From IMG/VR virus record IMGVR_UViG_3300015242_000042, positions 1 to 23,336 of that record: a stretch of DNA of 23,336 nucleotides; one strand, written 5' to 3'. The notes beneath the pieces are model-generated. The model did not search any database. It was not told the origin of the DNA and saw only the letters and a program-made list of their open reading frames with translations. The stretch comes from a virus. Within the stretch, counting starts at the first letter, position 1; each line of letters opens with the position of its first letter. Shown one piece after another: positions 6,066-18,414 of this stretch. A program made the translations under genes and the position numbers.

Positions 6066-6148
6066 CTGGAAGTTCTTCCAGTGTATAGATATGCTGATTG
6101 ACTGTGATAAGGGGTGTGGACCTTACAGCCTGTTAAAGTCAGGCCACA
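6066..6148 (+). ncRNA. Structured leader with hairpin and pseudoknot before tRNA-Pro
   Basis: A hairpin (CTGGAAG 6066-6072 / CTTCCAG 6075-6081) is followed by a likely pseudoknot. TAAGG (6108-6112) pairs with CCTTA (6121-6125); TGTG in its loop (6115-6118) pairs with CACA (6145-6148); and an inserted hairpin GCCTG/CAGGC sits between. Several other tRNAs in this window have the same knot in front of them. Confidence 0.5.
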
Positions 6149-6162
6149 AGCTAGCAAAACGA

Positions 6163-6233
6163 ATGGGTGTAGTGTACTGGAAGCGCGCTGCATTTGGGAT
6201 GCAGTAGAGTGGGTTCGATTCCCATCACCCGTA
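6163..6233 (+). tRNA. tRNA-Pro(TGG), first copy
   Basis: Acceptor ATGGGTG pairs with CACCCGT, the anticodon stem is CTGCA/TGCAG with loop TTTGGGA, and the T arm is GTGGG-TTCGATT-CCCAT. It is 71 nt with discriminator A and no encoded CCA. The D stem (GTGT/GCGC) uses G-U pairs. Confidence 0.9.
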
Positions 6234-6245
6234 CTGGTTTGGGAT

Positions 6246-6274
6246 TTGCACTATAGTTCCGAATCGTATATACT
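6246..6274 (+). promoter_or_regulatory. Promoter for a leaderless HNH gene
   Basis: TTGCAC (6246-6251), 17 nt, TATACT (6269-6274). The expected start of transcription, 6-7 nt beyond the -10 box, is at the ATG of the HNH gene (6281), so the mRNA would have no leader. Confidence 0.8.
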
Positions 6275-6280
6275 ACAAGT

Positions 6281-6709
6281 ATGAAAACTTGTAGTAGGTG
6301 TAACGAAGAAAAGGAACTTTCAGAGTTTCGAAAGAGAACAAAATCTCCAGATGGTTTTTCTGTATGGTGTAGGCAATGTTTCGCTAAGTACGAGCATGAC
6401 CGTTACCAAAATGGTGACCGTGCTCGTAAAGAGAAGAACAAGGCAAACACTGTTGACAAAAACAGAAAGTCTTTGTGGGATTATCTGTCTACTCACCCAT
6501 GTGTAGACTGTGGGAATTCTGACCCTAGGGTGCTAGAATTTGACCATAGAGATGAACTTACAAAGAGTCACAATGTAACCGAACTATGGAACTACAGTTG
6601 GTCTAGAATTATGGATGAAATTAGCAAGTGCGACGTAAGGTGCGCAAATTGCCATAGAATCAGGACCCAAGAACAGTTCGGAACATGGAGATTTAATTTC
6701 GGGATGTAG
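6281..6709 (+). CDS. HNH endonuclease ending inside tRNA-Pro
   Basis: This 142-residue protein has an N-terminal zinc finger (CSRC ... WCRQC) and a C-terminal HNH domain. That domain has CVDCG, the FDHRD metal-binding histidine region, and RCANCHRIRT with the second cysteine pair. It fits free-standing, probably homing, HNH nucleases that nick or cut DNA. Transcription likely starts at the ATG itself, so no ribosome binding site is needed. The stop codon TAG (6707-6709) is T8-A9-G10 of tRNA-Pro, so the last ten bases of the gene are the first ten of the tRNA. The HNH gene at 15004 has the same arrangement. Confidence 0.9.
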   Translation: MKTCSRCNEEKELSEFRKRTKSPDGFSVWCRQCFAKYEHDRYQNGDRARKEKNKANTVDKNRKSLWDYLSTHPCVDCGNSDPRVLEFDHRDELTKSHNVTELWNYSWSRIMDEISKCDVRCANCHRIRTQEQFGTWRFNFGM

Positions 6710-6773
6710 CTCAGTTTGGTAGAGCGCGCCGTTTGGGGCGGTGAAGTCGCAGGTTCAACTCCTGTCATCCCGA
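6700..6773 (+). tRNA. tRNA-Pro(TGG), second copy
   Basis: Acceptor CGGGATG/CATCCCG, D arm GCTC/GAGC, anticodon loop TTTGGGG in stem CGCCG/CGGTG, T arm GCAGG-TTCAACT-CCTGT, discriminator A. It shares 6700-6709 with the HNH gene. It is not a recent duplicate of the first Pro tRNA: most stems differ. Confidence 0.95.
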
Positions 6774-6809
6774 CTTCCTGATAAATATGCCATGCAAAGG
6801 AAATGTACA

Positions 6810-7334
6810 ATGACTGACATAATGACTCGTGAGGAGCTAGTCCTTGCGATTGAGCGAAGAGATGGTTTAAACTGTTTCTTGTGCAAGGGACCTTTTTCAA
6901 AGGATGTAAACAATCCACTGTTTGAGGTGACCATTGACCACTGGTACCCACAGTCTATCGGTTTTGCTGAAGGCTGGACATACGAAGAGGTTAATGACCT
7001 TTCAAACTTGAGAAAGGCTCACAGACCTTGTAATGCTGCTAAGGGCGACTTGATTCCTAACCTTGATGGTACTCTCCCTGAGAGGCCAAGCAAGGATAGG
7101 ACAATCAGACTTCCACGGCCTATGTCATGTGATACTTGTATGAATGGTAGGATTCTTCTTATAGGAGAAACCTGTCCTGACTGTAATTCTGGACCACAAC
7201 CCAAGAATTCACCTAGAGCTACGCAGAAGCGACCAAAGGACTGTAGCCACAGTGGCATTGACCACTGCTGGATGTGTTTCATTGGTCATGTTCCTAGAAA
7301 GTCTGCGCTAGCTGTTATAATAACTGGAGAGTAA
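6810..7334 (+). CDS. HNH-type nuclease with extra C-terminal zinc sites
   Basis: The 174-residue protein has CFLCKG early on, the HNH core TIDHWYPQ, and NLRKAHRPCNAAKGD, which is the N..H..C plus KG ending of HNH domains. After it come two more possible zinc sites, CDTC...CPDC and CSHS...HCWMC, so the protein may bind nucleic acid through its C-terminal half. It follows tRNA-Pro by 36 nt and has a normal ribosome binding site (AAAGGAAA, 6797-6804). It thus belongs to the tRNA transcript rather than having its own promoter, unlike the other two HNH genes. Confidence 0.8.
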   Translation: MTDIMTREELVLAIERRDGLNCFLCKGPFSKDVNNPLFEVTIDHWYPQSIGFAEGWTYEEVNDLSNLRKAHRPCNAAKGDLIPNLDGTLPERPSKDRTIRLPRPMSCDTCMNGRILLIGETCPDCNSGPQPKNSPRATQKRPKDCSHSGIDHCWMCFIGHVPRKSALAVIITGE

Positions 7335-7696
7335 TGGCTTCTGGATGGGATTGGCCATCTGAGGAATACAAGGATGACCCCGAGAAACTAAAAATTCATC
7401 GTGAGCAACGAATGTCTCGGGGTTATTCTGTATTTGACTGGTGGTGCTTTGATACATATATTTCCGGGGTTATTGCTAGTGCCGTAGAGAATTTTTCTAC
7501 AGGCCATGGCTACCCTGGTGACTTTAGCAACATGGAAGAGTTCGAAGCCTTCTGCAAGTCAATCTATGAACCTCTTGCCTTCTATGCAAGTGACGAGTAT
7601 AGTAGATTGAAGTGGGTAGACCAAGAGCCAAAGTACATGGAGGCTGTTGAAGCAATGAAGAAGTTTGCTGAACGCCTCGGTTCTTGGTGGGACTGA
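7334..7696 (+). CDS. Hypothetical protein rich in Trp and Tyr
   Basis: I do not recognise this 120-residue acidic protein. It starts MASGWDWPSEEYKDDP, has FDWWCFDTYISG in the middle and ends LGSWWD. The many aromatic residues and the lack of a signal peptide suggest a folded cytoplasmic protein. The ATG overlaps the stop of the HNH-type gene (TAATG) with GGAG upstream, so it is coupled to it. Confidence 0.65.
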   Translation: MASGWDWPSEEYKDDPEKLKIHREQRMSRGYSVFDWWCFDTYISGVIASAVENFSTGHGYPGDFSNMEEFEAFCKSIYEPLAFYASDEYSRLKWVDQEPKYMEAVEAMKKFAERLGSWWD

Positions 7697-7697
7697 C

Positions 7698-7726
7698 TTG
7701 ACACCGACCCCAGTCGGTAGTAAGAT
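7698..7726 (+). promoter_or_regulatory. Promoter with spacer hairpin before tRNA-Gln/Trp
   Basis: TTGACA (7698-7703), 17 nt, TAAGAT (7721-7726). The spacer holds CCGAC (7704-7708) and GTCGG (7713-7717) around CCCA, starting 7 nt after the stop of the gene before it. Confidence 0.85.
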
Positions 7727-7740
7727 GGTAATACGCCTAA

Positions 7741-7798
7741 AGGAACCGGCTATTATGTTCCTCGTCAAATGCCTGTGACGACGTAACCACAATCAGGC
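7741..7798 (+). ncRNA. Pseudoknotted leader before tRNA-Gln
   Basis: Hairpin AGGAAC (7741-7746)/GTTCCT (7757-7762) is followed by TCGTCA (7762-7767)/TGACGA (7776-7781). Its loop contains GCCTG (7771-7775), complementary to CAGGC (7794-7798): a classical H-type pseudoknot ending 5 nt before the tRNA. Confidence 0.6.
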
Positions 7799-7803
7799 AA
7801 CTT

Positions 7804-7874
7804 TACTCCATCGTCTAATGGCAAGACATCGGTTTCTGGTGCCGAGAATTGAGGTTCGAGTCCTTGTGGAGTAG
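7804..7874 (+). tRNA. tRNA-Gln(CTG)
   Basis: Acceptor TACTCCA/TGGAGTA, D stem GTCT/AGAC, anticodon loop TTCTGGT in stem TCGGT/GCCGA, T loop TTCGAGT, discriminator G as usual for glutamine. Confidence 0.92.
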
Positions 7875-7887
7875 CTTGCAACAACAT

Positions 7888-7958
7888 ATCTCCGAAGTGT
7901 TACGGTAGCACGGTGGTCTCCAAAACCATAAGCTCAGGTTCGACTCCTGGCGGGGGTG
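7888..7958 (+). tRNA. tRNA-Trp(CCA)
   Basis: Acceptor ATCTCCG/CGGGGGT (with two G-U pairs), D stem GTGT/GCAC, anticodon loop CTCCAAA in stem GTGGT/ACCAT, T arm TCAGG-TTCGACT-CCTGG, discriminator G. Confidence 0.92.
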
Positions 7959-7986
7959 CTTGACTTCCGAAAGTTGGGGGTGTACG

Positions 7987-8079
7987 ATGATTAAACAACG
8001 TCTTAAGACAATCATTGATGGTCTGAAACTTGCTGTAGATAGATACAAGCGTAGAAAGACTATGAAGAAGATGAAATGA
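7987..8079 (+). CDS. Very small basic protein
   Basis: A 30-residue ORF (MIKQRLKTIIDGLKLAVDRY then KRRKTMKKMK) lies between tRNA-Trp and the first Y-like RNA. GGGGG at 7976-7980 gives a plausible ribosome binding site. It would form one amphipathic helix with a strongly basic tail, which could bind RNA. No family is known to me, and translation is not proven. Confidence 0.45.
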   Translation: MIKQRLKTIIDGLKLAVDRYKRRKTMKKMK

Positions 8080-8086
8080 GACAAGC

Positions 8087-8199
8087 TTTTCGGGTCGATT
8101 GGATAGGGTTATCTACTCAAATTAAATTGGTTAATTGACGCCTTCGGGCAACCCTTCGGCGGGTATAGCCGAATCTCCCTTCCACCACATATCCGAAAA
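8087..8199 (+). ncRNA. Y RNA-like element 1 (no tRNA module)
   Basis: The two ends pair: TTTTCGGGT (8087-8095) with ATCCGAAAA (8191-8199). Inside are the 5' loop CGATT, a second helix GGA.GGG (8101-8108)/CCC.TCC (8177-8183), and the 3' loop ACCACAT. The middle holds AATTAA/TTAATT and CGCC...GGCG hairpins instead of a tRNA part. It ends 3 nt before tRNA-Ile. The same core recurs four more times; the neighbouring Ro60 gene suggests a Ro-binding RNA. Confidence 0.6.
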
Positions 8200-8202
8200 C
8201 AT

Positions 8203-8277
8203 TGGGGTGTAGCTCGGTCTGGTTAGAGCAATCGTCTGATAAGCGATAGGTCGTGGGTTCGAATCCCACCTCCCCAA
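8203..8277 (+). tRNA. tRNA-Ile(GAT)
   Basis: Acceptor TGGGGTG/CTCCCCA with one T-T mismatch, D stem GCTC/GAGC, anticodon loop CTGATAA in stem ATCGT/GCGAT, T arm GTGGG-TTCGAAT-CCCAC, discriminator A. Confidence 0.92.
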
Positions 8278-8278
8278 C

Positions 8279-8415
8279 TTTGTGGGTCGTAGAATGTTGT
8301 TTATCCCGGAACCGGCTGTTAGGGGTTCGACTCCCCTCTGAGGACTTAATTGTCGTCGGTAGCTCAACGGCAGAGCACTGGTCATATTAACGATATTCGT
8401 ACCTATATCCACAAG
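8279..8415 (+). ncRNA. Y RNA-like element 2 with permuted tRNA-like module (anticodon CCG)
   Basis: Terminal helix TTGTGGGT (8280-8287)/ATCCACAA (8407-8414), loops CGTA and GTACCTAT, second helix GAATGTTG (8292-8299)/CGATATTC (8391-8398). Between them a tRNA 3' part comes first: ACCGG, CTGTT, then AGGGG-TTCGACT-CCCCT and CTGAGGA (8311-8344). Its 5' part follows: TCGTCGG, TA, GCTC-loop-GAGC, A, CTGGT (8353-8382). CTGGT pairs with ACCGG at all five positions and TCGTCGG with CTGAGGA at six of seven. The loop assembled from both strands would have seven bases, with CCG at the anticodon place. Confidence 0.6.
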
Positions 8416-8416
8416 C

Positions 8417-8539
8417 TTTATGGGTCGATGATGTTCGATTATCTTATCCGAAATTGAGCGGGCTAGGTTCGATTCCTACCTGTTGGGCTGGAGCGCTATG
8501 AAAGTAGCCGCCCATTCGAACTCGCACCATATCCATAAA
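8417..8539 (+). ncRNA. Y RNA-like element 3
   Basis: Terminal helix TTTATGGGT (8417-8425)/ATCCATAAA (8531-8539), loops CGAT and GCACCAT, second helix GA-GTTCGA (8430-8438)/TCGAACTC (8516-8523) with one bulged base. Inside is a T arm-like hairpin around TTCGATT (8468-8474), but I cannot find a matching acceptor half, so its tRNA part is degenerate or different. Confidence 0.55.
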
Positions 8540-8544
8540 ATAAT

Positions 8545-8631
8545 GGAAGAGCAATCCGATTGGCGACGGAACCTGTCTTGAAAACAGTTGAGGTGTAAAA
8601 GCCCTTGGGGGTTCGACTCCCCCTTCTTCCG
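8545..8631 (+). tRNA. tRNA-Ser(TGA)
   Basis: Class II tRNA with long variable arm. Acceptor GGAAGAG/TTCTTCC, anticodon loop CTTGAAA, T arm GGGGG-TTCGACT-CCCCC, discriminator G as typical of serine. Confidence 0.9.
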
Positions 8632-8652
8632 CTTTAAAACTTAAGGAGTAAC

Positions 8653-8832
8653 ATGACAGAGAATGTTGGTCCGAGTACATACCAGTTGGTCATGTTGCTT
8701 GCCATTCAGCGCAAGCCCATGTATCTTGGTACTGTTCCTCAGGCTGAGATTGACAGACGACGAGCGGCAAGCAAGAGAGCGCGACTACAGCGCAGAACAA
8801 ATAGAAGGCTTGACACGACTAGGCGTTCCTGA
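8653..8832 (+). CDS. Small protein with arginine-rich tail
   Basis: A 59-residue ORF with an excellent ribosome binding site (AAGGAG, 8643-8648) was recognised by hand. The N-terminal half is neutral (STYQLVMLLAIQRKPMYLGT). The C-terminal half is full of arginine and lysine (DRRRAASKRARLQRRTNRR), which looks like nucleic acid binding. No family is recognised. The gene lies between tRNA-Ser and tRNA-Asp. Confidence 0.7.
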   Translation: MTENVGPSTYQLVMLLAIQRKPMYLGTVPQAEIDRRRAASKRARLQRRTNRRLDTTRRS

Positions 8833-8846
8833 TAGTCTTAAAGTAA

Positions 8847-8872
8847 GAGGTTGGTGGTCCTCACAAAACCAC
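8847..8872 (+). ncRNA. Pseudoknot just before tRNA-Asp
   Basis: GAGG (8847-8850) pairs with CCTC (8859-8862), and GTGGT in the loop (8854-8858) can pair with ACCAC (8868-8872). It ends 5 nt before the tRNA. Confidence 0.5.
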
Positions 8873-8877
8873 ACCAT

Positions 8878-8952
8878 GCGCCATGGGACTGCTGGGATGG
8901 TCACTTCCCTGTCAAGGAAGACAACAGGCGGGTTCAATTCCCGTATGGCGCG
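8878..8952 (+). tRNA. tRNA-Asp(GTC)
   Basis: Acceptor GCGCCAT/ATGGCGC, D stem GACT/GGTC, anticodon loop CTGTCAA in stem CTTCC/GGAAG, T loop TTCAATT, discriminator G, the aspartate identity base. The variable region is slightly long (7 nt). Confidence 0.9.
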
Positions 8953-8978
8953 CTTTATTTTCAACAAAAGGAGTTACA

Positions 8979-9182
8979 GTGGCAAAGGTCAAGAAGTTCG
9001 ACTTGCGAGAGACCGATAAGCCTGGTACGCTGAATGCCGTAGTAAACGGTAAGTGGCGCGGGTTGGTTGAGAAGACAGGTCGTTCGGACTATGCACTCCA
9101 TCTTGGCAAGGATGATGTAACTAATTTCAAGAGCAAGAAGGCTCTTGAGACTTGGCTGCTTGAGAAGTGGCCTTCTAACTAA
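8979..9182 (+). CDS. Small hypothetical protein (GTG start)
   Basis: The 67-residue protein starts at GTG 8979, because AAAGGAG (8967-8973) sits 5 nt upstream and the longer frame runs back through tRNA-Asp. It begins MAKVKKFDLRETDKPGTL and contains VVNGKWRGLVEK and FKSKKALETWLLEKW. It is basic and mixed alpha-beta. Function is unknown. It precedes two Y-like RNAs. Confidence 0.7.
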   Translation: MAKVKKFDLRETDKPGTLNAVVNGKWRGLVEKTGRSDYALHLGKDDVTNFKSKKALETWLLEKWPSN

Positions 9183-9195
9183 ATACTTAAGCGTT

Positions 9196-9258
9196 CGGGT
9201 CGAAGATTTTCGGTTATCTACTTATGCGAAGAAAACACCGATTATCATCACATATCCG
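9196..9258 (+). ncRNA. Y RNA-like element 4 (minimal form)
   Basis: CGGGT (9196-9200) pairs with ATCCG (9254-9258). The loops are CGAA and ATCACAT. The second helix is GAT..TCGGT (9205-9214)/ACCGA..ATC (9237-9246), closed by a short apical part. It is about 63 nt, the shortest of the five, with no tRNA module. Confidence 0.5.
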
Positions 9259-9271
9259 TTCCCAAACTTTC

Positions 9272-9431
9272 AGCCCCTAATTATGTCGGGTCGGATGTTT
9301 ATCGGTTATCTTACTGCTAATAAGGAGTTCCGGGTTCGAATCCCGGCGGTTCCATTCTTGGGACTGTGGTGTAAATGGCAACACGTTAACCCCGATGAAC
9401 GCTGCTACATCCGTCAATATAATTAGGGGCT
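9272..9431 (+). ncRNA. Y RNA-like element 5 with complete permuted tRNA module (anticodon GCT)
   Basis: A perfect 12-bp outer helix (9272-9283 with 9420-9431) encloses CGGGT/ATCCG (9409-9413), loops CGGAT and GCTGCTAC, and helix GTTTATCGG (9297-9305)/CCGATGAAC (9392-9400). Inside, the tRNA 3' part comes first: anticodon arm TCTTA-CTGCTAA-TAAGG, AGTT, T arm CCGGG-TTCGAAT-CCCGG, acceptor CGGTTCC, A (9309-9354). Its 5' part follows: acceptor GGGACTG, TG, D arm GTGT-loop-ACAC, G (9360-9385). All seven acceptor pairs form (two G-U). The short variable loop does not fit a normal serine tRNA. Confidence 0.7.
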
Positions 9432-9458
9432 AAGCTTTTTCCAAAAAGGGAGAATAAC

Positions 9459-9638
9459 ATGTACGAGCGTAAGGCAGACCAGTCAGTTAACCTTGTACGG
9501 ATGGAGAATGACGATACCTACCGGATTGTAGAAGACCTTGAGATGCTTTTGCTCAAGGGTCACAAGAAGGTTATTTTCGAAAAGGCCCGCCGTGACAAGG
9601 GAATCGTTGGTAGTTTCTACATTCAGGTGGAAGAGTGA
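9459..9638 (+). CDS. Small hypothetical protein
   Basis: The 59-residue protein begins MYERKADQSVNLVRMENDD and ends GIVGSFYIQVEE. GGGAGAA upstream (9448-9454) is a suitable ribosome binding site, next to a CTTTTT/AAAAAG hairpin (9435-9440/9443-9448). It overlaps the following gene by GTGA. Charged, no transmembrane part, unknown function. It sits between the Y-like RNAs and Ro60. Confidence 0.7.
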   Translation: MYERKADQSVNLVRMENDDTYRIVEDLEMLLLKGHKKVIFEKARRDKGIVGSFYIQVEE

Positions 9639-10006
9639 TTCGAAATAGTTGGGGACAGAAGATTGAGGTTGGCACCTTCGTATATCGTGGTGCTAGGCTC
9701 GGAAACAGTTCCGATTACAAGGCGGGTGTGGTAGAGTCTATCAAGGATGGAAAGCCACGAGTTCGATGGCTGTACCGTTCAAATGGTAGATGGATTAAGA
9801 TTGACGGAGAGCGTATCCTTGTCCCCTATGTTTACGAGGTTGGTCGTGCTAGTCTAGGCGTACCTCCTCTTGAGAGCATCGTGGTTGCAGACTTTGACCT
9901 TGAACGTCTTGAGCGTTTGGCTGCTATCCATAAGGAGTTCCCAAAGGATATTGAGTTTACGGACATGGAAGATTATTACAACTTCCTGGACAACTACATT
10001 CCTTGA
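9635..10006 (+). CDS. Hypothetical protein with SH3-like N-terminal half
   Basis: The 123-residue protein starts at GTG 9635, overlapping the TGA of the preceding gene. Its first half (WGQKIEVGTFVYRGARLG, then AGVVESIKDGKPRVRWLYR) has the rhythm of a KOW/SH3-like beta barrel, which often binds RNA or protein. The second half is helical and acidic, ending MEDYYNFLDNYIP. The role is unknown; the position directly upstream of the Ro60 gene makes an RNA-related job possible. Confidence 0.65.
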   Translation: MIRNSWGQKIEVGTFVYRGARLGNSSDYKAGVVESIKDGKPRVRWLYRSNGRWIKIDGERILVPYVYEVGRASLGVPPLESIVVADFDLERLERLAAIHKEFPKDIEFTDMEDYYNFLDNYIP

Positions 10007-10012
10007 AAAATC

Positions 10013-10056
10013 TGCCGGGTTTCCGGCAAGCTTGCAATCCAATGCCCAAAATGGGC
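10013..10056 (+). terminator. Two hairpins between the small genes and Ro60
   Basis: TGCCGG (10013-10018)/CCGGCA (10023-10028) is followed by GCCCA (10044-10048)/TGGGC (10052-10056). Neither has a long U tract, so they may attenuate or protect rather than fully terminate. A third stem CGAAA/TTTCG partly covers the ribosome binding site of the Ro60 gene. Confidence 0.45.
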
Positions 10057-10078
10057 CGAAACGAAAGGAAATTTCGAA

Positions 10079-11710
10079 ATGACGAATTCTCTTGGCAAGT
10101 ATGCTGCTTCTCAGAAGCAGGCTAAGGTTGCCACTCCTCAGACAGAGCGTACCCCTGGTCGAACTGATGAGGTAAAGAACAACGCGGGCGGGTTTGTGTT
10201 CAAGGTCGATGAGAAGTCACGACTTGAGCGCTTCCTGATTCTTGGTACCGACAAGGGTACTTACTACGTTGGTGAGCAGAAGCTTACTGGCGAGAACGTC
10301 ACCTTCCTGAAGGAGCTTGTTCGTAAGAACGAGCGTCTGGTTGTGGACACCGCTGTTGACGTCTCTGTAAATGGTCGTGCGCTTAAGAATTCTCCCGCGC
10401 TGTTCGCTCTGGCTACGGTTATGAGCGAGGGTCAGGATAAGGCTTACGCCCGTGCGGCTGTGCAGAAGGTTGCGCGTACCTCTACTCACCTGTACGAGTA
10501 TGGTGATTACATCGAGTCTCTTGGTGGATGGGGTCGTGCAAAGCGACAGTCTATTTCTGAATGGTATGAGTCTAAGGACGCAAGTGACCTATCTTACCAG
10601 GCAGTCAAGTACCGTCAGAGGAATGGCTGGACGCACCGTGACCTCTTTAGGCTTTCTCACCCAAAGGGTGTTGACCGATACGTCGGTGACTTCATTCTTG
10701 GTAAGGAGTCTGAGGCTGTTGCAACGTTTAATGGTCCTGATTACATTGCGGGATTCAATGTTCTTAAGTCTGCACAGACAGTTAAGGATGTTCTGACTGC
10801 TCTTGAGCAGTTCCCGTATATGCCATGGGAGGCTATTCCTACTCAGTTCCTCAAGGAGCAGAAGGTTTGGAAGACGCTCTTCTACCAGGGTCAGCTTCGT
10901 GGTCAGGCTCTCGTTCGTAACGTCACTCGCCTAGCGCGAATGGGTGCGTTCGATGACATGGTTTTCGCTGCTGACTATGCTGCACGACTTGCGGATGCGG
11001 AAATGATTAGGAAGACTCGTCTTCACCCAATCAACTTCCTTAACGCTGTTGTTGTGCATCAGGAGGGTCAGGTTGACCGTAGGAATCAGGGCTATTGGTC
11101 AACGGGACGCAACAAGGATTGGAAGTCTAACGGAAAGATTGTGGATGCTCTCAATGAGGGATTCCACCTTGCTTTCAAGACTGTTGAGCCTGCTAACAAG
11201 CGAACTCTAGTCGCAACGGATGTTTCAGGGTCTATGACTCAGAACGCTATTGGACTGGACCTGTCTTGTGCTCAGGTTTCTGCGGCGGTTTCCATGACGG
11301 TTGCTCGTACTGAGCCTTACAGCGATATCGTTGGCTTCGCTACCGATATTCGTGACCTTGGTATCACTGCCAAGTCTTCTCTGACCGACGCAATGCGTAA
11401 GGTCCAGAGTTACAACTTCGGTGGTACTGATGCGGCTGCTGCAATTAAGTATGCTGACCGACAGGGAATTCAGGTTGACACCTTCGTCGTTATCACTGAT
11501 AACGAGACGTGGGGCGGAAGCCAGAAGCCTTTCCAGGCTCTTAAGCAGTACCGTCAGAAGACCGGAATTGATGCACGTCTTGCGGTTCTCGGTGTGGCGT
11601 CTACGGACTTCACTATCGCTGACCCTACGGACCGTGGTATGATGGACTTCGTTGGTTTTGATTCAAATGCTCCGAAGGCTCTCGCAGACTTCAGTGCTGG
11701 TCGAATCTGA
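10079..11710 (+). CDS. Ro60-like TROVE/vWA RNA-binding protein
   Basis: This 543-residue protein has the plan of Ro60 (bacterial Rsr). An N-terminal alpha-helical TROVE ring covers about residues 40-370; it includes the SHPKGVDRYVGDFILG and LPxQFLKxxxVW-like parts typical of the family. A C-terminal von Willebrand A domain follows, with a complete MIDAS: D381-V-S383-G-S385, T450 and D474. Ro rings hold 3' ends of misfolded or damaged RNAs in the central hole and bind Y RNAs on the outside; in bacteria Y RNA can connect Ro to a 3' exoribonuclease. Its own hairpin-rich leader and a terminator (11716-11742) isolate it. Five Y-like RNAs lie 0.6-2 kb upstream. Confidence 0.92.
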   Translation: MTNSLGKYAASQKQAKVATPQTERTPGRTDEVKNNAGGFVFKVDEKSRLERFLILGTDKGTYYVGEQKLTGENVTFLKELVRKNERLVVDTAVDVSVNGRALKNSPALFALATVMSEGQDKAYARAAVQKVARTSTHLYEYGDYIESLGGWGRAKRQSISEWYESKDASDLSYQAVKYRQRNGWTHRDLFRLSHPKGVDRYVGDFILGKESEAVATFNGPDYIAGFNVLKSAQTVKDVLTALEQFPYMPWEAIPTQFLKEQKVWKTLFYQGQLRGQALVRNVTRLARMGAFDDMVFAADYAARLADAEMIRKTRLHPINFLNAVVVHQEGQVDRRNQGYWSTGRNKDWKSNGKIVDALNEGFHLAFKTVEPANKRTLVATDVSGSMTQNAIGLDLSCAQVSAAVSMTVARTEPYSDIVGFATDIRDLGITAKSSLTDAMRKVQSYNFGGTDAAAAIKYADRQGIQVDTFVVITDNETWGGSQKPFQALKQYRQKTGIDARLAVLGVASTDFTIADPTDRGMMDFVGFDSNAPKALADFSAGRI

Positions 11711-13010: not shown

Positions 13011-13044
13011 GGGGTTAAGGAAACCGTCTCCCCGCTGTTGACGG
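13011..13044 (+). ncRNA. Pseudoknotted leader before tRNA-Arg(ACG)
   Basis: GGGG (13011-13014) pairs with CCCC (13030-13033); CCGTC in the loop (13024-13028) pairs with GACGG (13040-13044). The tRNA starts 9 nt later. Confidence 0.6.
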
Positions 13045-13052
13045 AACCATCT

Positions 13053-13124
13053 GCTTCCGTAGGCTAATGGATAAACCAGGGTGCTACGAACGCTCAATTG
13101 TCGGTTCGAGTCCGGCCGGAAGCA
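13053..13124 (+). tRNA. tRNA-Arg(ACG)
   Basis: Acceptor GCTTCCG/CGGAAGC, anticodon loop CTACGAA in stem GGGTG/CGCTC, T arm GTCGG-TTCGAGT-CCGGC, discriminator A. A34 would need deamination by the host TadA to read CGU/CGC/CGA. Confidence 0.93.
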
Positions 13125-13125
13125 C

Positions 13126-13271: not shown

Positions 13272-13276
13272 ACCAT

Positions 13277-13349
13277 GCCCCTGTAGAGTAATGGATAACT
13301 CAGCACTCTTCTAAAGTGTACAATGCTGGTTCGAATCCAGTCAGGGGTA
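13277..13349 (+). tRNA. tRNA-Arg(TCT)
   Basis: Acceptor GCCCCTG/CAGGGGT, anticodon loop CTTCTAA in stem GCACT/AGTGT, T loop TTCGAAT, discriminator A. Confidence 0.92.
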
Positions 13350-13353
13350 CGCA

Positions 13354-13533: not shown

Positions 13534-13546
13534 GGGCTTATGAGAA

Positions 13547-13576: not shown

Positions 13577-13579
13577 GAA

Positions 13580-14107: not shown

Positions 14108-14111
14108 GTGT

Positions 14112-14270: not shown

Positions 14271-14457
14271 GCTAGAAAAGGCCGGGGTTACGGTCAGACA
14301 GTATTGTGGACTTGATGCAGAAGAAGGTGTAGGCTGTTCAGAAGAAGCCGTAGGTGAGGTAATCGCACAGCTTGAAGATGACGTACAGATTCCTGTGCCA
14401 GTCTGTCAAGGACACCTAGACTTGATTCGGTCAGAGTTTAATATTGAAGACGTTTGA
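14254..14457 (+). CDS. Small acidic hypothetical protein
   Basis: The 67-residue product starts MIDLAELEKAGVTVRQYCG and ends FNIEDV. The ATG at 14254 was selected because GAGGTGG lies at 14241-14247; an upstream ATG (14239) would put the start before this site. Two cysteines, very acidic, no known domain. The stop lies in the -35 box of the tRNA-Ala promoter. Confidence 0.65.
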   Translation: MIDLAELEKAGVTVRQYCGLDAEEGVGCSEEAVGEVIAQLEDDVQIPVPVCQGHLDLIRSEFNIEDV

Positions 14458-14493
14458 CAAGTAGTACGAACTCTTGCTATGATAGAAGAGTTC
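14454..14493 (+). promoter_or_regulatory. tRNA-Ala promoter with inverted repeat around the -10 box
   Basis: TTGACA (14454-14459), 18 nt, TATGAT (14478-14483). GAACTCTT (14468-14475) and AAGAGTTC (14486-14493) are perfectly complementary and flank the -10 box, so a regulator or DNA hairpin could act there. The tRNA starts 3 nt later. Confidence 0.75.
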
Positions 14494-14495
14494 CT

Positions 14496-14568
14496 GGGGG
14501 TGTAGCTCCAATGGTAGAGCAGCAGCTTTGCAAGCTGACGGCTGTCGGTTCGAATCCGACCATCTCCA
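14496..14568 (+). tRNA. tRNA-Ala(TGC)
   Basis: Acceptor GGGGGTG/CATCTCC, D stem GCTC/GAGC, anticodon loop TTTGCAA in stem GCAGC/GCTGA, T arm GTCGG-TTCGAAT-CCGAC, discriminator A. The usual G3-U70 alanine pair is present. Confidence 0.95.
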
Positions 14569-14603
14569 CTGGTCATACTTGACCTACAAAGGGGGTGTAC
14601 AGT

Positions 14604-14663
14604 ATGCTGTACACACTACTAGTAATTCTGGTAATCATCGTTATTCTGATGCTTATCTTCTAA
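14604..14663 (+). CDS. 19-residue membrane microprotein
   Basis: The reading frame MLYTLLVILVIIVILMLIF is one hydrophobic membrane helix with nothing else. AAAGGGGGTG (14588-14597) is a good ribosome binding site. It lies after tRNA-Ala and before a second membrane microprotein, suggesting a pair that acts at the host membrane, but no function is known. Confidence 0.6.
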   Translation: MLYTLLVILVIIVILMLIF

Positions 14664-14673
14664 GGAGGTAATC

Positions 14674-14763
14674 ATGAGAGGCAATGAGGTAGTATGGACT
14701 ATCGCAGGTATTCTATTCATCATCTGTCAGGTAGTCTGGCTGATTGACAACGTCAATCTCTGA
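14674..14763 (+). CDS. 29-residue membrane microprotein
   Basis: MRGNEVVWTIAGILFIICQ begins a single membrane span that ends at VVWLIDNVNL, with a short charged N-terminus. A consensus ribosome binding site AAGGAGG (14662-14668) sits 5 nt before the ATG and overlaps the stop of the preceding microprotein, so the two are coupled. Confidence 0.7.
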   Translation: MRGNEVVWTIAGILFIICQVVWLIDNVNL

Positions 14764-14777
14764 TGATAAGCTAATGT

Positions 14778-14968
14778 AACGGGTCAACACTCACTGCTTG
14801 CAAAGTGCCCCCTAGGCCAAGTGCACATGGTCCTAGCCATACAAGTCCTGTATGCGGTTCCTGGAGAGGGATACAACTCATGGACAAGCTTGGCTGGAAC
14901 GATATGAACCCCATCATATCCTACGAAAGTAGCCCGAGGGTTAGGGACCAGCGCTTACGTGGATGAGG
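14778..14968 (+). ncRNA. Structured intergenic RNA, about 190 nt without a gene
   Basis: No convincing frame is present. Strong local stems include CTAGG/CCTAG, CATACA/TGTATG, GTTCC/GGAAC and a perfect GATATGA/TCATATC. GGGTC near the start can pair with GACC near the end, closing the region. It ends at the promoter of the HNH gene. The fold is inferred by eye only. Confidence 0.4.
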
Positions 14969-14997
14969 TTGCCTTCTCTTAAACTCTGTGGTAAGAT
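14969..14997 (+). promoter_or_regulatory. Promoter for the second leaderless HNH gene
   Basis: TTGCCT (14969-14974), 17 nt, TAAGAT (14992-14997). As at 6246, the ATG (15004) lies where transcription should begin. Confidence 0.75.
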
Positions 14998-15003
14998 TAA
15001 GAC

Positions 15004-15348
15004 ATGGAGGACGATAAGAAGGCAGCCAAGGCAGCCGCTCAAAAGCGGTGGTACGAGAAAAATAAAGCAAAACATGTTGCTAATGTTTCTATTAGAAAGA
15101 AAATTGTAGTTGAGAGAGTTAAAGTTTTCGTCAAGGAATTGAAGGAAAGCAGTCCATGTACAGATTGTGGGAATAAGTACCCTTCATACGTTATGGATTT
15201 TGACCATCTCGGAGACAAGGAATATCAGATTGCCAATATGGTTCAAAGTGGCTACGATATTCCATCAGTACAGAAAGAAATTGACAAGTGTGAGATTGTT
15301 TGCGCAAACTGTCATAGAATCCGTACACATAACCGTATGGTTCGGTAG
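15004..15348 (+). CDS. HNH endonuclease ending inside tRNA-Lys
   Basis: The 114-residue protein has a lysine/alanine-rich N-terminal helix and an HNH domain: CTDCG, YVMDFDHLG and CEIVCANCHRIRTH. The C-terminal part is almost the same motif string as in the HNH at 6281 (CANCHRIRT), but the N-terminal finger is absent. The gene has its own promoter, probably no leader, and its TAG stop (15346-15348) is bases 8-10 of tRNA-Lys. The exact repeat of this arrangement suggests that these nucleases settle against tRNA 5' ends. Confidence 0.9.
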   Translation: MEDDKKAAKAAAQKRWYEKNKAKHVANVSIRKKIVVERVKVFVKELKESSPCTDCGNKYPSYVMDFDHLGDKEYQIANMVQSGYDIPSVQKEIDKCEIVCANCHRIRTHNRMVR

Positions 15349-15411
15349 CTCAGTCTGGTCGAGCGGAGGGCTCTTAACCCTTGGACGTGGGTTCGAATCC
15401 CACCCGAATCA
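15339..15411 (+). tRNA. tRNA-Lys(CTT)
   Basis: Acceptor GGTTCGG/CCGAATC, D stem GCTC/GAGC, anticodon loop CTCTTAA in stem GAGGG/CCCTT, T arm GTGGG-TTCGAAT-CCCAC, discriminator A. Its first 10 bases are also the end of the HNH gene. Confidence 0.95.
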
Positions 15412-15432
15412 CGTTAATCAAATAATAAAAAC

Positions 15433-15466
15433 ACCCCGGTTACTCAGTGGCCGGGGTTTTACTTTT
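15433..15466 (+). terminator. Intrinsic terminator after tRNA-Lys
   Basis: ACCCCGG (15433-15439)/CCGGGGT (15451-15457), followed by TTTACTTTT: the most classical terminator of the window. It lies only 20 nt before the vWA gene, whose ribosome binding site follows at once. Confidence 0.85.
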
Positions 15467-15476
15467 AGGAGAAAAC

Positions 15477-16280
15477 ATGTTCGGTCGTCGCAAGGCTGCT
15501 TTTGTTCCCGACAACACCAAGCGAGTTCTCAAGACCGTTAAGGTCGTTAAGCGAGACCCTTCTACTGCTGCTGCACCTGTTGACCTTATCAAGAAGGTCG
15601 GTGTTTCGTTTGAGAAGAAGGTTGAGTCTGCTGTCAATCTGAACAAGAATGTCAGTGGTCCTTCTCGCGGGGTTGTGTGGAATGTAATTGGTCTGCTTGA
15701 CGAGTCCTACTCTATGGACCCTTTCTTCTATGATGGTACGGTCCAGGAGATTGTTGACCGTGTTCTCGCATGGTCTGCCTCGGTTGACGCTGATGGCCTG
15801 GTGCCGTTTGGCGGGTTTGCTAACAGTCACGTTTGGCACGGAGACGTTGACCTGACGAACGTTAATAACGTCGTTGCTACAAACGGCTGGTCCCCTTGGG
15901 GTGGAACCAACCTTGCTGACTCTCTCAAGGCCATCCTTGACATGGTTAAGGACATGGGAGATGCTTGGCAGGAGAACCCCATCCTTCTATTCATTGTGAC
16001 GGACGGAATGCCTCAGAACCAGGCCCTTGTTAAGCAGTACATTCAGGAGCTTTCTCAGTATCCTGTCTTTATCAAGATTCTGCGGGTTGGGAATGACTCT
16101 GGTGCCAAGGCTTTTGTTGAAGACCTTGACAACATGGTTGGTGGTCGTCTTGTGGATAACGTTGAGGCTCCGGATGATGGTCTCCGCAAGGGGATGTCTG
16201 ACGATAAGTTCAACGCTGCCATGATTAACGACATGGACAAGTACGTCAATGAGGCAACTGCGGCGGGTCTGCTTAGTTGA
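15477..16280 (+). CDS. von Willebrand A domain protein
   Basis: The 267-residue protein has a basic N-terminal segment of about 60 residues (MFGRRKAAFVPDN at its start) and then a complete vWA fold with MIDAS: D75-E-S77-Y-S79, T144 in GGTNLADSL, and D176 in VTDGMP. The domain type is close to TerF/TerY-like vWA proteins of stress and phage defence gene clusters, which bind protein partners through a metal ion. There are no membrane or secretion signals. The ATG at 15477 has TTAGGAG at 15465-15471. It is the second vWA protein here besides Ro60. Confidence 0.85.
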   Translation: MFGRRKAAFVPDNTKRVLKTVKVVKRDPSTAAAPVDLIKKVGVSFEKKVESAVNLNKNVSGPSRGVVWNVIGLLDESYSMDPFFYDGTVQEIVDRVLAWSASVDADGLVPFGGFANSHVWHGDVDLTNVNNVVATNGWSPWGGTNLADSLKAILDMVKDMGDAWQENPILLFIVTDGMPQNQALVKQYIQELSQYPVFIKILRVGNDSGAKAFVEDLDNMVGGRLVDNVEAPDDGLRKGMSDDKFNAAMINDMDKYVNEATAAGLLS

Positions 16281-16305
16281 CAAGCACCTTCGGGTGTTGT
16301 AAGAT
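16277..16305 (+). promoter_or_regulatory. Promoter of the Met tRNA pair, with spacer hairpin
   Basis: TTGACA (16277-16282), 17 nt, TAAGAT (16300-16305). AGCACC (16283-16288)/GGTGTT (16293-16298) with a TTCG tetraloop fills the spacer. The -35 box overlaps the stop of the vWA gene. A leader hairpin GCGAC-GCAA-GTCGC follows before the tRNA. Confidence 0.85.
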
Positions 16306-16333
16306 ATAAGAACAAGGCGACGCAAGTCGCTGT

Positions 16334-16404
16334 GGCCGTATTGTGAAATGGCATCACGCTTCCCTCATAAGGAATGATTCCTAGTTCGATTCTAGGTACG
16401 GCTA
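16334..16404 (+). tRNA. tRNA-Met(CAT), elongator-type (or Ile2)
   Basis: Acceptor GGCCGTA/TACGGCT, D stem GTGA/TCAC, anticodon loop CTCATAA, T arm CCTAG-TTCGATT-CTAGG, discriminator A. If C34 is converted to lysidine it would decode AUA as isoleucine; this cannot be told from sequence. Confidence 0.88.
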
Positions 16405-16405
16405 C

Positions 16406-16481
16406 TGCGCGGTAGTGGAGTTCGGTTCCACGTGGGGCTCATAACCCTAAGACACCGGTTCGAATCCGGTCTGCGCCACCA
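16406..16481 (+). tRNA. Initiator tRNA-fMet(CAT)
   Basis: It has the two initiator marks: an unpaired first acceptor position (T1 against C72 in TGCGCGG/CTGCGCC) and three G-C pairs at the base of the anticodon stem (TGGGG/CCCTA). The loop is CTCATAA. It is the only tRNA here that clearly has a CCA end encoded in the DNA. Confidence 0.88.
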
Positions 16482-16503
16482 CTTCTTCAAGAGAAAGGTA
16501 AGT

Positions 16504-16674
16504 ATGGCAACGCCATATAAGATTGCCTACTCCCACGAAGAGAAGGCAAAAATCGACAAAGAACTCAAGGGTATAATGAAGAGTTCTGGAACTGATAAAA
16601 CTCACAAAATTAAAGTAGAACATAAGTTTGTGAAACATAAGCCACAATGGGAGTTCTATGTTGTACCTAAGTGA
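16504..16674 (+). CDS. Small lysine-rich hypothetical protein
   Basis: The 56-residue protein begins MATPYKIAYSHEEKAKIDKE and ends WEFYVVPK, with a very basic middle (HKIKVEHKFVKHK). AGAAAGG (16491-16497) is the likely ribosome binding site. It is probably a small nucleic acid binding or host-takeover protein, but no family is visible. Confidence 0.65.
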   Translation: MATPYKIAYSHEEKAKIDKELKGIMKSSGTDKTHKIKVEHKFVKHKPQWEFYVVPK

Positions 16675-16687
16675 CACGTCTTAAAAA

Positions 16688-16711
16688 CCTTCTACCGTAA
16701 AAAGTAGAAGG
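16688..16711 (+). promoter_or_regulatory. Hairpin that holds part of a ribosome binding site
   Basis: CCTTCTAC (16688-16695) pairs with GTAGAAGG (16704-16711). The second strand contains most of the Shine-Dalgarno AAGGAGG (16708-16714) of the gene at 16724, so translation may be limited until the stem opens. It may also stabilise the 3' end of the upstream message. Confidence 0.55.
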
Positions 16712-16723
16712 AGGTGTTGAAAA

Positions 16724-16840
16724 ATGCCAGGACCAATGTCCCGCCCAGATGGGCACAAGGAGACTGTACAGGAGCGTATCGCTCGTGGTAGACTTCTGAT
16801 GAACGGAAAGACCCCGAAGACTGGAAAGTCTTCAAAGTGA
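16724..16840 (+). CDS. Small basic hypothetical protein
   Basis: A 38-residue ORF (MPGPMSRPDGHKETVQERIA, then ARGRLLMNGK) with a perfect ribosome binding site AAGGAGG. It ends in a TPKTGKSSK tail. The stop lies in a GTGAGC/GCTCAC hairpin that separates it from tRNA-Phe. No function known. Confidence 0.65.
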   Translation: MPGPMSRPDGHKETVQERIARGRLLMNGKTPKTGKSSK

Positions 16841-16854
16841 GCTTAGCTCACTCT

Positions 16855-16926
16855 GGCTCTCTAGCTGAGATGGATTAGCGCTAGTCTGAAGAACTTGAGA
16901 GGCCGGTTCGATACCGGCGGGAGCCA
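16855..16926 (+). tRNA. tRNA-Phe(GAA)
   Basis: Acceptor GGCTCTC/GGGAGCC, anticodon loop CTGAAGA in stem CTAGT/ACTTG (one T-T mismatch), T arm GCCGG-TTCGATA-CCGGC, discriminator A. Confidence 0.9.
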
Positions 16927-16927
16927 C

Positions 16928-17116
16928 ATGATTAGTCGAGAAGAAGCGATTGAAGCTGTCGAGTCTCTTGACGGACTTCAGCCATCGTGGTATCGTGAGA
17001 TTCTGGAAAACGGACCGCAAGGCGATGAAGAATACACCCTACGTGGTGACGACCTTGGTTCGGTAATCTACTCAATAAGTGTTCTTAAGGAATACTTCAA
17101 CATTAAGGAAGATTAA
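16928..17116 (+). CDS. Small acidic protein starting 1 nt after tRNA-Phe
   Basis: This 62-residue protein (MISREEAIEAVESLDGLQPS at its start) has no space for its own leader: one C separates the ATG from the tRNA discriminator base. GGGAG in the acceptor strand could serve as ribosome binding site before processing; after tRNA release the message is practically leaderless. The sequence is helical and acidic with no known domain. Its TAA overlaps the ATG of the next gene region. Confidence 0.65.
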   Translation: MISREEAIEAVESLDGLQPSWYREILENGPQGDEEYTLRGDDLGSVIYSISVLKEYFNIKED

Positions 17117-17281
17117 ATGGGATTTCTCGGATTTGGCGGGAATAGCAAGGATACGTCCTCAACTCAGGATGACTCTACAGATGAAGAGAAGGCGGAACAG
17201 GCATTGAAGTTCCACACTGCATCTGGTAGGTTTGGTCCTGTAGGGAAGCGAGACAAGACATGGAAGACATCCGACGAGTAA
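17117..17281 (+). CDS. Small glycine/serine-rich protein
   Basis: The 54-residue product begins MGFLGFGGNSKDTSSTQDDS, then has a charged helix and ends KRDKTWKTSDE. It is probably mostly unstructured. It starts directly after the stop of the gene before it and overlaps the next by 22 nt, so it is kept as part of a coupled run. Function unknown. Confidence 0.55.
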   Translation: MGFLGFGGNSKDTSSTQDDSTDEEKAEQALKFHTASGRFGPVGKRDKTWKTSDE

Positions 17282-17475
17282 GTGATGAAGACCTGAATCG
17301 TCCTGGTCCAGGTTCCTCAACTGATGAACGTGCTGCTGAAGAAATCGGAATTCCGATGGAACAGCTTATCGAGATGATGGATATCTGGATGAAGCACGCT
17401 GGAGAAAACGCACGGGAACGAATGAGGCGACGCAAGGAACGCCTTGCCAACAAGGACAGAACGGTGGTAGAGTAA
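17260..17475 (+). CDS. Small helical, charged protein
   Basis: A 71-residue protein starts MEDIRRVSDEDLNRPGPGSS and continues as one long helix with EQLIEMMDIWMKHAGENARE followed by RMRRRKERLANK. The methionine/isoleucine pattern suggests a dimerising helix with a basic end. GGGAAGCGAG lies upstream. No family recognised. Confidence 0.65.
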   Translation: MEDIRRVSDEDLNRPGPGSSTDERAAEEIGIPMEQLIEMMDIWMKHAGENARERMRRRKERLANKDRTVVE

Positions 17476-17478
17476 AGC

Positions 17479-17631
17479 ATGACACCGGAACAGTATGAGG
17501 CATTCAAGACTCGTGCAGAAAATGCGGGTATCCCGATGAACTTGCCTCAAGTTACTAAGGAACGCAAGGAAGAGATTCGAAGGTATTTTCGAGAGAATCC
17601 ACCAGTTGACTACTTCGCTTTGATGAAGTAA
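17479..17631 (+). CDS. Small hypothetical protein overlapping a promoter
   Basis: The 50-residue ORF (MTPEQYEAFKTRAENAGIPM at its start) is basic and helical. Its last codons contain the next promoter: TTGACT is inside VDY and the TAA stop is the first half of the -10 box TAAGAT. It is coupled to the gene before it by a 3-nt gap. Confidence 0.65.
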   Translation: MTPEQYEAFKTRAENAGIPMNLPQVTKERKEEIRRYFRENPPVDYFALMK

Positions 17632-17634
17632 GAT
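17606..17634 (+). promoter_or_regulatory. tRNA-Tyr promoter with spacer hairpin
   Basis: TTGACT (17606-17611), 17 nt, TAAGAT (17629-17634). ACTTC (17612-17616)... GAAGT surrounds the spacer. It is followed by a GCCC-GAAA-GGGC hairpin before the tRNA. Confidence 0.8.
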
Positions 17635-17658
17635 AGTAGTATAGCCCGAAAGGGCAAT

Positions 17659-17739
17659 GGATGAGTTGAGCAGGTGGTGCGCTCAGCAGGCTGTAACCCT
17701 GTAGCTTCGGCATTGAAGGTTCGATTCCTTTCTCATCCA
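17659..17739 (+). tRNA. tRNA-Tyr(GTA)
   Basis: Class II tRNA: acceptor GGATGAG/CTCATCC, anticodon loop CTGTAAC, a 12-nt variable arm, T arm GAAGG-TTCGATT-CCTTT, discriminator A. Confidence 0.9.
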
Positions 17740-17765
17740 CTGTGGCCATAGCATAAAAGTAATGT

Positions 17766-17811
17766 TCTAGTTTGTGACACTAGAGAAGAGGGGGCGGTAC
17801 CCTCTGGTCAC
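17766..17811 (+). ncRNA. Pseudoknot with inserted hairpin before tRNA-Cys
   Basis: TCTAGT (17766-17771)/ACTAGA (17779-17784), with loop bases GTGAC (17774-17778) pairing to GTCAC (17807-17811), and an inserted AGAGGG/CCCTCT hairpin. The plan equals those before tRNA-Pro and tRNA-Asn. Confidence 0.65.
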
Positions 17812-17815
17812 CCCA

Positions 17816-17886
17816 GTCCTTATGTGCGAGAGGCTAGCAAGCAGTCTGCAAAACTGTGCACGTCGGTTCGAATCCGACTAAGGGCT
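17816..17886 (+). tRNA. tRNA-Cys(GCA)
   Basis: Acceptor GTCCTTA/TAAGGGC, anticodon loop CTGCAAA in stem GCAGT/ACTGT, T arm GTCGG-TTCGAAT-CCGAC, discriminator T, the cysteine identity base. Confidence 0.93.
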
Positions 17887-17893
17887 CGTGAAT

Positions 17894-18058
17894 ATGAACG
17901 ATGTTTCAATTGGCATGAAGGTACGTATTACTAAGCCTGGTGAACATAAAGAAAAGACTGCTAAGGTTATCAAGGCTCCAACAAGTAGCGGATTGACACT
18001 TGAGCTGAGGAACGGAAGGCAGATTGAAATTCCAGTCAGATTCGTAGAATCTGCGTGA
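17894..18058 (+). CDS. Small KOW/SH3-like protein after tRNA-Cys
   Basis: The 54-residue protein (MNDVSIGMKVRITKPGEHKE, then TAKVIKAPTSSGLTLELRNG) has the strand and turn pattern of a KOW or SH3-like barrel, with the GxxVRI start and closing RFVESA. Such folds often contact RNA or ribosomal proteins. It starts 7 nt after the tRNA with no good ribosome binding site. Two similar small proteins (18749, 22271) also follow tRNAs directly. Confidence 0.65.
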   Translation: MNDVSIGMKVRITKPGEHKEKTAKVIKAPTSSGLTLELRNGRQIEIPVRFVESA

Positions 18059-18063
18059 ATTTC

Positions 18064-18278
18064 GGCGGGGTTTCCCCGCAAGCTATGTATCCCCCACCTG
18101 GATACAGAAGGTGAGCTGAGGGTTTTTCGAAACCGTAGGCTAAATGAATTAGATTCAACCTGTGTAAGTGGAGCGGGTCTGTCCTAGTAGGCAGATTTAT
18201 CCAAGGATATAGCCCGTAGAAGCCTTGGCACCAGAGACTACAACGTACTAGCGTTGCTGGTGGTTCCGGTGAAAGACC
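18064..18278 (+). ncRNA. Structured intergenic RNA, about 215 nt without a gene
   Basis: A GCGGGG/CCCCGC hairpin is followed by an H-type pseudoknot: GTATCC/GGATAC with CACCT in the loop pairing to AGGTG. Further on are GGTTT/AAACC, CCAAGG/CCTTGG (crossed by CGGGT/GCCCG) and a long rod, CACCAG/CTGGTG, around CAACG/CGTTG. No frame of interest is seen. It is probably processed from the tRNA-Cys transcript. Confidence 0.45.
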
Positions 18279-18307
18279 TTGTCAGTCTCAGCCGGTTTTG
18301 TTATAAT
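18279..18307 (+). promoter_or_regulatory. tRNA-Asn promoter
   Basis: TTGTCA (18279-18284), 17 nt, TATAAT (18302-18307). It starts inside the end of the structured RNA before it. Confidence 0.75.
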
Positions 18308-18344
18308 GAGGGTATCCTACCTATATTTAAAATGGGAATGTTTA

Positions 18345-18414
18345 GCGACTAATCTAAGTTAGGGGCAGAGGCCCAGACCTTAGAGAATGGCCAGAGGATT
18401 GTTACCTCCGTCGC
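18345..18414 (+). ncRNA. Leader of tRNA-Asn: closed pseudoknot
   Basis: GCGAC (18345-18349) and GTCGC (18410-18414) close the region. Inside, CTAA/TTAG with loop TCTAAG (18353-18358) pairing to CTTAGA (18379-18384), and an inserted GGGC/GCCC hairpin. A CATGG/CCATG hairpin follows before the tRNA. Confidence 0.6.

Follow-up and report, generated by a model that had tools for sequence, protein, structure and literature searches.

H-type pseudoknots and other compact folds in the leaders of tRNA genes of Streptomyces phages

The tRNA Array and Its Leaders

The transfer RNA (tRNA) array in the IMG/VR virus record IMGVR_UViG_3300015242_000042 was examined for RNA structures in the leaders that precede its tRNA genes. 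The stretch analyzed, referred to as the window, comprises 23,336 nucleotides (nt), and its source is a Streptomyces phage (Stanwilliamsviridae, Loccivirinae). The phages Faust, Beuffert, Sham, and TunaTartare had most of the window in common, with ~79–82% identity over the common parts, and the relatives were Streptomyces phages with dozens of tRNA genes each. ARAGORN predicted 20 tRNAs and 1 transfer-messenger RNA in the window, and a tRNA-His gene was overlooked. H-type pseudoknots were located in the leaders of tRNA-Gln, tRNA-Asp, tRNA-Arg(ACG), and tRNA-Asn (Table 1). An earlier note on this DNA had proposed six such knots before tRNAs; those of Gln, Asp, and Arg stood at the positions given, the ones assigned to Cys and Asn did not, and the Pro case was ambiguous. 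The knot that abuts tRNA-Asn (p = 0.03) had not been noticed there.

Table 1. Coordinates of the leader folds and adjoining features in the window.
Feature	Position	Strand	Details
Candidate pseudoknot or nested three-way fold before tRNA-Pro	6108-6148	+	Ends 14 nt from tRNA
Promoter TTGACA-N17-TAAGAT ahead of tRNA-Gln	~7700-7726	+	Predicted; place approximate
H-type pseudoknot before tRNA-Gln	7762-7799	+	S1 7762-7767/7776-7781; S2 7770-7775/7794-7799; linker 7800-7803
tRNA-Gln(CTG)	7804-7875	+	ARAGORN
H-type pseudoknot before tRNA-Asp	8847-8872	+	S1 8847-8850/8859-8862; S2 8854-8858/8868-8872; linker 8873-8877
tRNA-Asp(GTC)	8878-8953	+	ARAGORN
H-type pseudoknot before tRNA-Arg(ACG)	13011-13044	+	S1 13011-13014/13030-13033; S2 13024-13028/13040-13044; linker 13045-13052
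tRNA-Arg(ACG)	13053-13125	+	ARAGORN
tRNA-His(GTG) gene with encoded CCA	17742-17815	+	RF00005, 43 bits at 17742-17812
Cloverleaf-like conserved RNA upstream of tRNA-Asn	18344-18437	+	Own pseudoknot; 14/24 pairs altered on both sides
H-type pseudoknot abutting tRNA-Asn	18427-18458	+	S1 18427-18431/18444-18448; S2 18435-18439/18454-18458; linker 18459-18461
tRNA-Asn(GTT)	18462-18539	+	ARAGORN

The Gln, Asp, and Arg knots sat 4–8 nt upstream of the tRNA. The Gln knot was formed by stem S1 (TCGTCA/TGACGA), loop L1 (AA), and stem S2 (TGCCTG/CAGGCA), with an L2 of 0 nt, an L3 of 12 nt, and a 4-nt linker, and its leader-shuffle p value was 0.005. The Asp knot (GAGG/CCTC and GTGGT/ACCAC) reached p ~0.08 when taken alone, and the Arg knot (GGGG/CCCC and CCGTC/GACGG) had a leader-shuffle p value of 0.03. 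The loops of the Arg knot (L1 of 9 nt) and the Asn knot (L2 of 4 nt) lay outside the canonical form. The first comparison took the 60–180 nt ahead of orthologous tRNAs from the window phage and 14 others, and the enlarged comparison included ~26 Loccivirinae and 17 sister-group loci; the sequences were related, and the counts given below are not independent events. Transcription starts were predicted throughout.

Covariation of the Two Stems

Covariation was evaluated with one structure per alignment, and 500 shuffles together with structures slid by 1–3 columns served as controls. The Asn alignment (8 Faust-type leaders) had 97.7% of its cells paired and 4 pairs altered on both sides. The corresponding values were 95.9% and 5 pairs for Gln (10 leaders), 98.4% and 3 pairs for Arg (7 leaders), and 89.6% and 6 pairs for Asp (4 leaders), and the altered pairs fell in both stems in every case. 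None of the 500 shuffles matched the covariation score at any of the four loci, and the slid structures scored lower. Relatedness inflates such counts, and the knots used to trim the alignments had first been spotted by eye; hence, weight was put on the pairs altered on both sides and on the slid structures. The Gln leader of the window itself was too diverged for alignment, and its support came from the shuffle test and from the presence of a knot at the corresponding position in most relatives.

Two crossing helices, each with compensatory change, support the assignment of the Asn, Gln, Arg, and Asp leaders as H-type pseudoknots. The earlier note had suggested that structure was kept rather than sequence and had called for a comparison with related phages; the compensatory changes found in both crossing stems at Gln, Asp, and Arg, and in both stems at Asn, support the suggestion. 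The loss of pairings in relatives, which it had named as contrary evidence, was seen in part: most relatives retained the pairings at Gln and Asn, and another structure was sometimes present instead at Arg and Pro. Because the knot shape was kept while the letters changed, the fold itself seems to be under selection in the leaders of several tRNAs.

Frequency of the Knots

The frequency of knots was compared with chance by a crude energy model, which combined nearest-neighbour stacks with a fixed knot penalty and required the 3' end to lie ≤12 nt from the tRNA. Of 155 nonredundant Loccivirinae leaders, 24.5% beat 95% of their own dinucleotide shuffles, as did 16.7% of 203 sister-group leaders, whereas the same test gave 6.7% and 8.1%, respectively, for control regions. 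When canonical loops and a linker of 2–5 nt were required, 18/155 Loccivirinae leaders remained against 0.3 expected (62-fold) and 8/203 sister-group leaders against 0.4 expected (20-fold); both cut-offs were set after the first results, and the tail probabilities are optimistic. Counts in the control regions were close to the expected values (14 versus 12.0 and 13 versus 7.8). The possibility raised beforehand, that shuffled sequence would hold such knots equally often, was therefore contradicted, as knots near tRNAs were far above both dinucleotide shuffles and non-tRNA controls. Among the Loccivirinae, the linker measured 2–5 nt in 80% of leader knots versus 34% in shuffles, canonical loops occurred in 41% versus 10%, and the A excess of L3 was 0.28 versus 0.07. 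This A excess was absent in the second subfamily.

A held-out Wilnyevirus pair had a knot at Pro (p = 0.005) and no knot at Gln or Asn. Under a generic knot penalty, the nested minimum free energy (MFE) structure was usually better than the knot, which seldom won; thus, the energy of a single sequence is no proof. The tRNAs of phage T5 abut one another or open reading frames, and its leaders were uninformative. In the Mycobacterium phage Dandelion, a tRNA-rich phage of another group, 2/19 leaders had canonical knots versus 0.14 expected, which is suggestive for one mycobacteriophage; its relatives were too similar or unalignable for covariation. A textbook H-type knot (GGGC/GCCC and GTCTCGC/GCGAGAC) was observed at 16963-17001 of Dandelion (L067), ending 3 nt before tRNA-Arg(ACG).

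Promoters, Spacers, and Interchangeable Structures

Promoters of the form TTGACA-N17-TAnnnT were found in 100 of the 264 tRNA leaders and in 1 of 264 shuffled ones, and the leader structure started ~3–4 nt past the predicted transcription start. Leaders behind tRNA promoters (mean z of -1.19 and -1.58) were more structured than those behind the remaining promoters of these phages (-0.31 and -0.40). In 17 Loccivirinae spacers that separate tandem tRNAs, the mean z was -2.6 and 5 knots were present against 0.7 expected; hairpins also occurred in the spacers. The 28-nt Gln–Trp spacer of Stigma and the 30-nt Leu–Val spacer of Ankus were each essentially one knot.

The type of structure varied at a given locus. 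Among the Arg leaders, those of the window phage, Beuffert, Limpid, Francob, and Gilson formed knots; Faust, Sham, and TunaTartare had hairpins instead, and a three-way junction was present in Stigma, Belfort, and (by eye) Moab. A plain hairpin took the place of the knot before Gln in BillNye and Circinus. Moreover, a near-identical knot preceded tRNA-Asn in Limpid and Annadreamy and tRNA-Arg(TCG) in BillNye, which indicates that the knot is independent of tRNA identity.

In the tRNA-Ala leader (window 14463-14495), an inverted repeat flanked the -10 box of a predicted promoter, and matching variation was seen in relatives. A knot overlapped the tRNA-Lys promoter of Muntaha and BillNye in the same manner. 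One pairing partner lies inside the predicted promoter in these Ala and Lys leaders, so that they would fold only in read-through RNA.

Reassigned Structures and Neighboring RNAs

The proposed Cys knot (17766-17811) was found to consist of the anticodon arm, T arm, and 3' acceptor strand of the overlooked tRNA-His(GTG), and tRNA-Cys followed this gene directly with zero spacer. A tRNA-His(gtg) was annotated or found at the same locus in the Loccivirinae relatives first examined. The copy in the window had the cloverleaf, GTG anticodon, C73, and orthologous position, and it lacked the canonical T loop (GGCGGTA in its place) and the D-loop GG, both canonical in the orthologues; it may be divergent or inactive. 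A degenerate tRNA as a general reading of the knots was rejected, as it holds for the Cys case only. Structure calls within tRNA arrays hence need the prior exclusion of overlooked tRNA genes.

The proposed Asn knot (18349-18384) was not a leader knot but belonged, as one arm, to a distinct RNA with a conserved cloverleaf shape. This RNA had invariant GT(T/C)AGG and AGAATGGCC, and its pseudoknot linked the last hairpin loop with the 3' linker. Its pair changes (Table 1) were counted across 13 phages. No convincing Rfam match was obtained for it, and a scan of viral contigs found it in only four phages, all of the same group. A twister-like ribozyme was considered and set aside, since the inner hairpin loop was short and variable and the strands did not fit; the conserved UAA after P1 was suggestive.

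At Pro, the pairs of the window occurred only in the window phage and Faust, where the sequence was near-identical. The 3' strand of S2 can close a nested three-way fold instead, and that fold was the MFE structure (-13.8). The extra hairpin that the earlier note had placed at the same position in three knots thus belonged to the tRNA-His gene, the separate RNA, and the ambiguous Pro fold, and its claim of one strand order throughout fails for the same reason.

Other observations concerned the remainder of the array. Conserved RNA of ~250 nt, free of coding sequence, followed tRNA-Cys in relatives (window ~18080-18320). Several of its segments appear to form pseudoknots, e.g., GTATCC/GGATAC with CACCT/AGGTG, and the Faust copy matched no Rfam family. 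The gene called tRNA-Pyl(cta) by ARAGORN at 13277-13350 gave the anticodon TCT when read with a 7-nt loop, and several relatives had tRNA-Arg(tct) at this place; it is most likely a tRNA-Arg(TCT). At 20026-20500, ~470 nt without an obvious gene followed a strong promoter-like site and contained many apparent stems.

Possible Roles of the Folded Leaders

The computations established that there are folds, where they lie, that they covary, and that they swap; each step past their existence is our inference. The knots may act as a sequence-free folded spacer that insulates the leader from the tRNA and shields the 5' side of the tRNA until RNase P cleavage, a reading to which we give about an even chance (probability ~0.5). 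According to this model, leaders and tandem spacers would be selected as compact, self-contained folds that end 2–5 nt before the mature 5' end of the tRNA, with the H-type pseudoknot as one frequent solution beside hairpins and three-way junctions. The action would depend on the fold and not on the sequence: the fold would prevent pairing between leader and tRNA during their transcription, leave RNase P a short linker that is free, and impede nucleases from the 5' side until RNase P removes the leader. A knot suits a leader of 25–35 nt because nearly all of its bases are engaged without long loops. RNase P requires a short free leader, with which a linker of 2–5 nt is compatible. Predicted mispairing between leader and tRNA amounted to ~4.2 expected pairs for native leaders versus 7.4 for shuffled ones (P ~1e-21), which is compatible with insulation.

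Several points weigh against this folded-spacer model. Any self-structured leader lowers mispairing, so that insulation is not singled out, and regions downstream of the tRNAs were structured too. At Gln and Asn, it was a knot in particular that most phages with these leaders retained despite strong sequence divergence, a hint that the knot as such has a role at these two loci. Furthermore, the Ala folds and the Lys folds of Muntaha and BillNye appear limited to read-through RNA.

A more far-reaching proposal is offered tentatively: in tRNA-rich actinophages, a transferable, sequence-free pseudoknot module might delimit tRNAs on their 5' side and serve as a roadblock or timer of maturation. 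It might represent a new kind of pre-tRNA leader that arose repeatedly, perhaps also in unrelated mycobacteriophages.

A fold at the triphosphate end of short primary transcripts could instead block the entry of RppH, RNase E, or RNase J, which is possible but somewhat improbable. The strong promoters directly upstream and the early start of the structure are consistent with such a shield, and roadblocks at the 5' end are known to stabilize the RNA behind them against RNase J1, a 5' exonuclease (review PMC3997798). However, the starts are predicted, other promoters had a similarly early first pairing without the stability, and like folds occurred at the read-through-only positions and in tandem-tRNA spacers. 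Protection of the transcript 5' end alone is weakened because the same type of knot fills spacers within tandem transcripts; the suggestion of the earlier note that the knots protect the 5' end of the precursor is still plausible, although less so as their sole role.

Control of RNase P, in which a fold from about -3 to -6 would slow or position the enzyme and time the release of the tRNA, is an unlikely explanation. The narrow linker of the Loccivirinae knots agrees with it, and the interchange of structure types at some loci does not.

The knots could also bind a protein, and the Ro protein of the phage had been suggested as a candidate. A Ro-like protein gene lies at 10079-11710 of the window (annotated as Ro in relatives), and most of these phages carry the Ro gene within the tRNA array. 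However, whole-record searches of Muntaha, BillNye, Circinus, and Annadreamy returned no Ro homologue, and leader knots were kept there at Pro (Muntaha, BillNye, and Circinus) and at Gln and Asn (Annadreamy). Ro is hence not their necessary reader. Moreover, the knots have no shared sequence, the Ro-binding helix motif was absent from them on inspection, and the Ro-type motif GGGTCGA..GGTTATC was seen (by eye) elsewhere in the array, which makes Ro binding very improbable. Five such Y-RNA-like motifs were noted among the tRNAs (window 8093, 8282, 8421, 9198, and 9286), and a sub-threshold YrlA match was obtained at 8289-8409. In StarPlatinum-type phages, such a motif begins exactly at the start predicted for a promoter ahead of a tRNA.

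Chance pairing, misread tRNA parts, or shared ancestry without constraint, which accounts for the Cys knot and leaves Pro unsupported, is scarcely credible for the set as a whole given the covariation in both stems, the 62- and 20-fold enrichment, and the near-expectation controls.

Leaders of pre-tRNAs are usually seen as short throwaway sequence, whereas these phage leaders appear to be selected for a fold without sequence. In actinobacteria, such natural, interchangeable leader structures could be used to study what a folded leader does to tRNA folding, to RNase P, and to RNA decay.

Comparison with Known Systems

H-type pseudoknots are known from the T4 gene 32 leader and from the frameshift and preQ1-I types. 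The leader knots resemble these in their two crossing stems and, in the Loccivirinae set, in an L1 of often 1–3 nt, an L2 of 0–1 nt, and an A-rich L3. They differ in that they lie 2–5 nt before tRNAs and not before a reading frame, without a conserved sequence or ligand site. In the search of the window, the knots matched no Rfam family at the gathering score, riboswitches included, and a riboswitch was rejected because there was neither an Rfam match nor a shared sequence. No description of pseudoknot leaders before tRNAs was found in the literature searched, which was of limited coverage.

Theta ribozymes, which are HDV-like, pseudoknotted, and catalytic, occur downstream of phage tRNAs and have been proposed to make tRNA 3' ends (PMC10879173). 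They share with the leader knots a pseudoknotted RNA that adjoins phage tRNA genes; however, they form a nested double knot on the 3' side, whereas the leader knots are simple and lie on the 5' side. An HDV-like or theta ribozyme was rejected on the basis of the wrong tRNA side, the wrong architecture, and the absence of an Rfam ribozyme match. Bacterial Y RNAs (YrlA, RF02553) are comparable in that Y-like motifs occur in the same array, but the leader knots have no Ro-binding motif or tRNA-like module. Finally, 5'-terminal stem-loops and roadblocks that stabilize bacterial RNA (PMC3997798) differ from the phage folds, which are also found in internal tRNA spacers and are presumably removed by RNase P; both place a structure near the 5' end that is independent of sequence.

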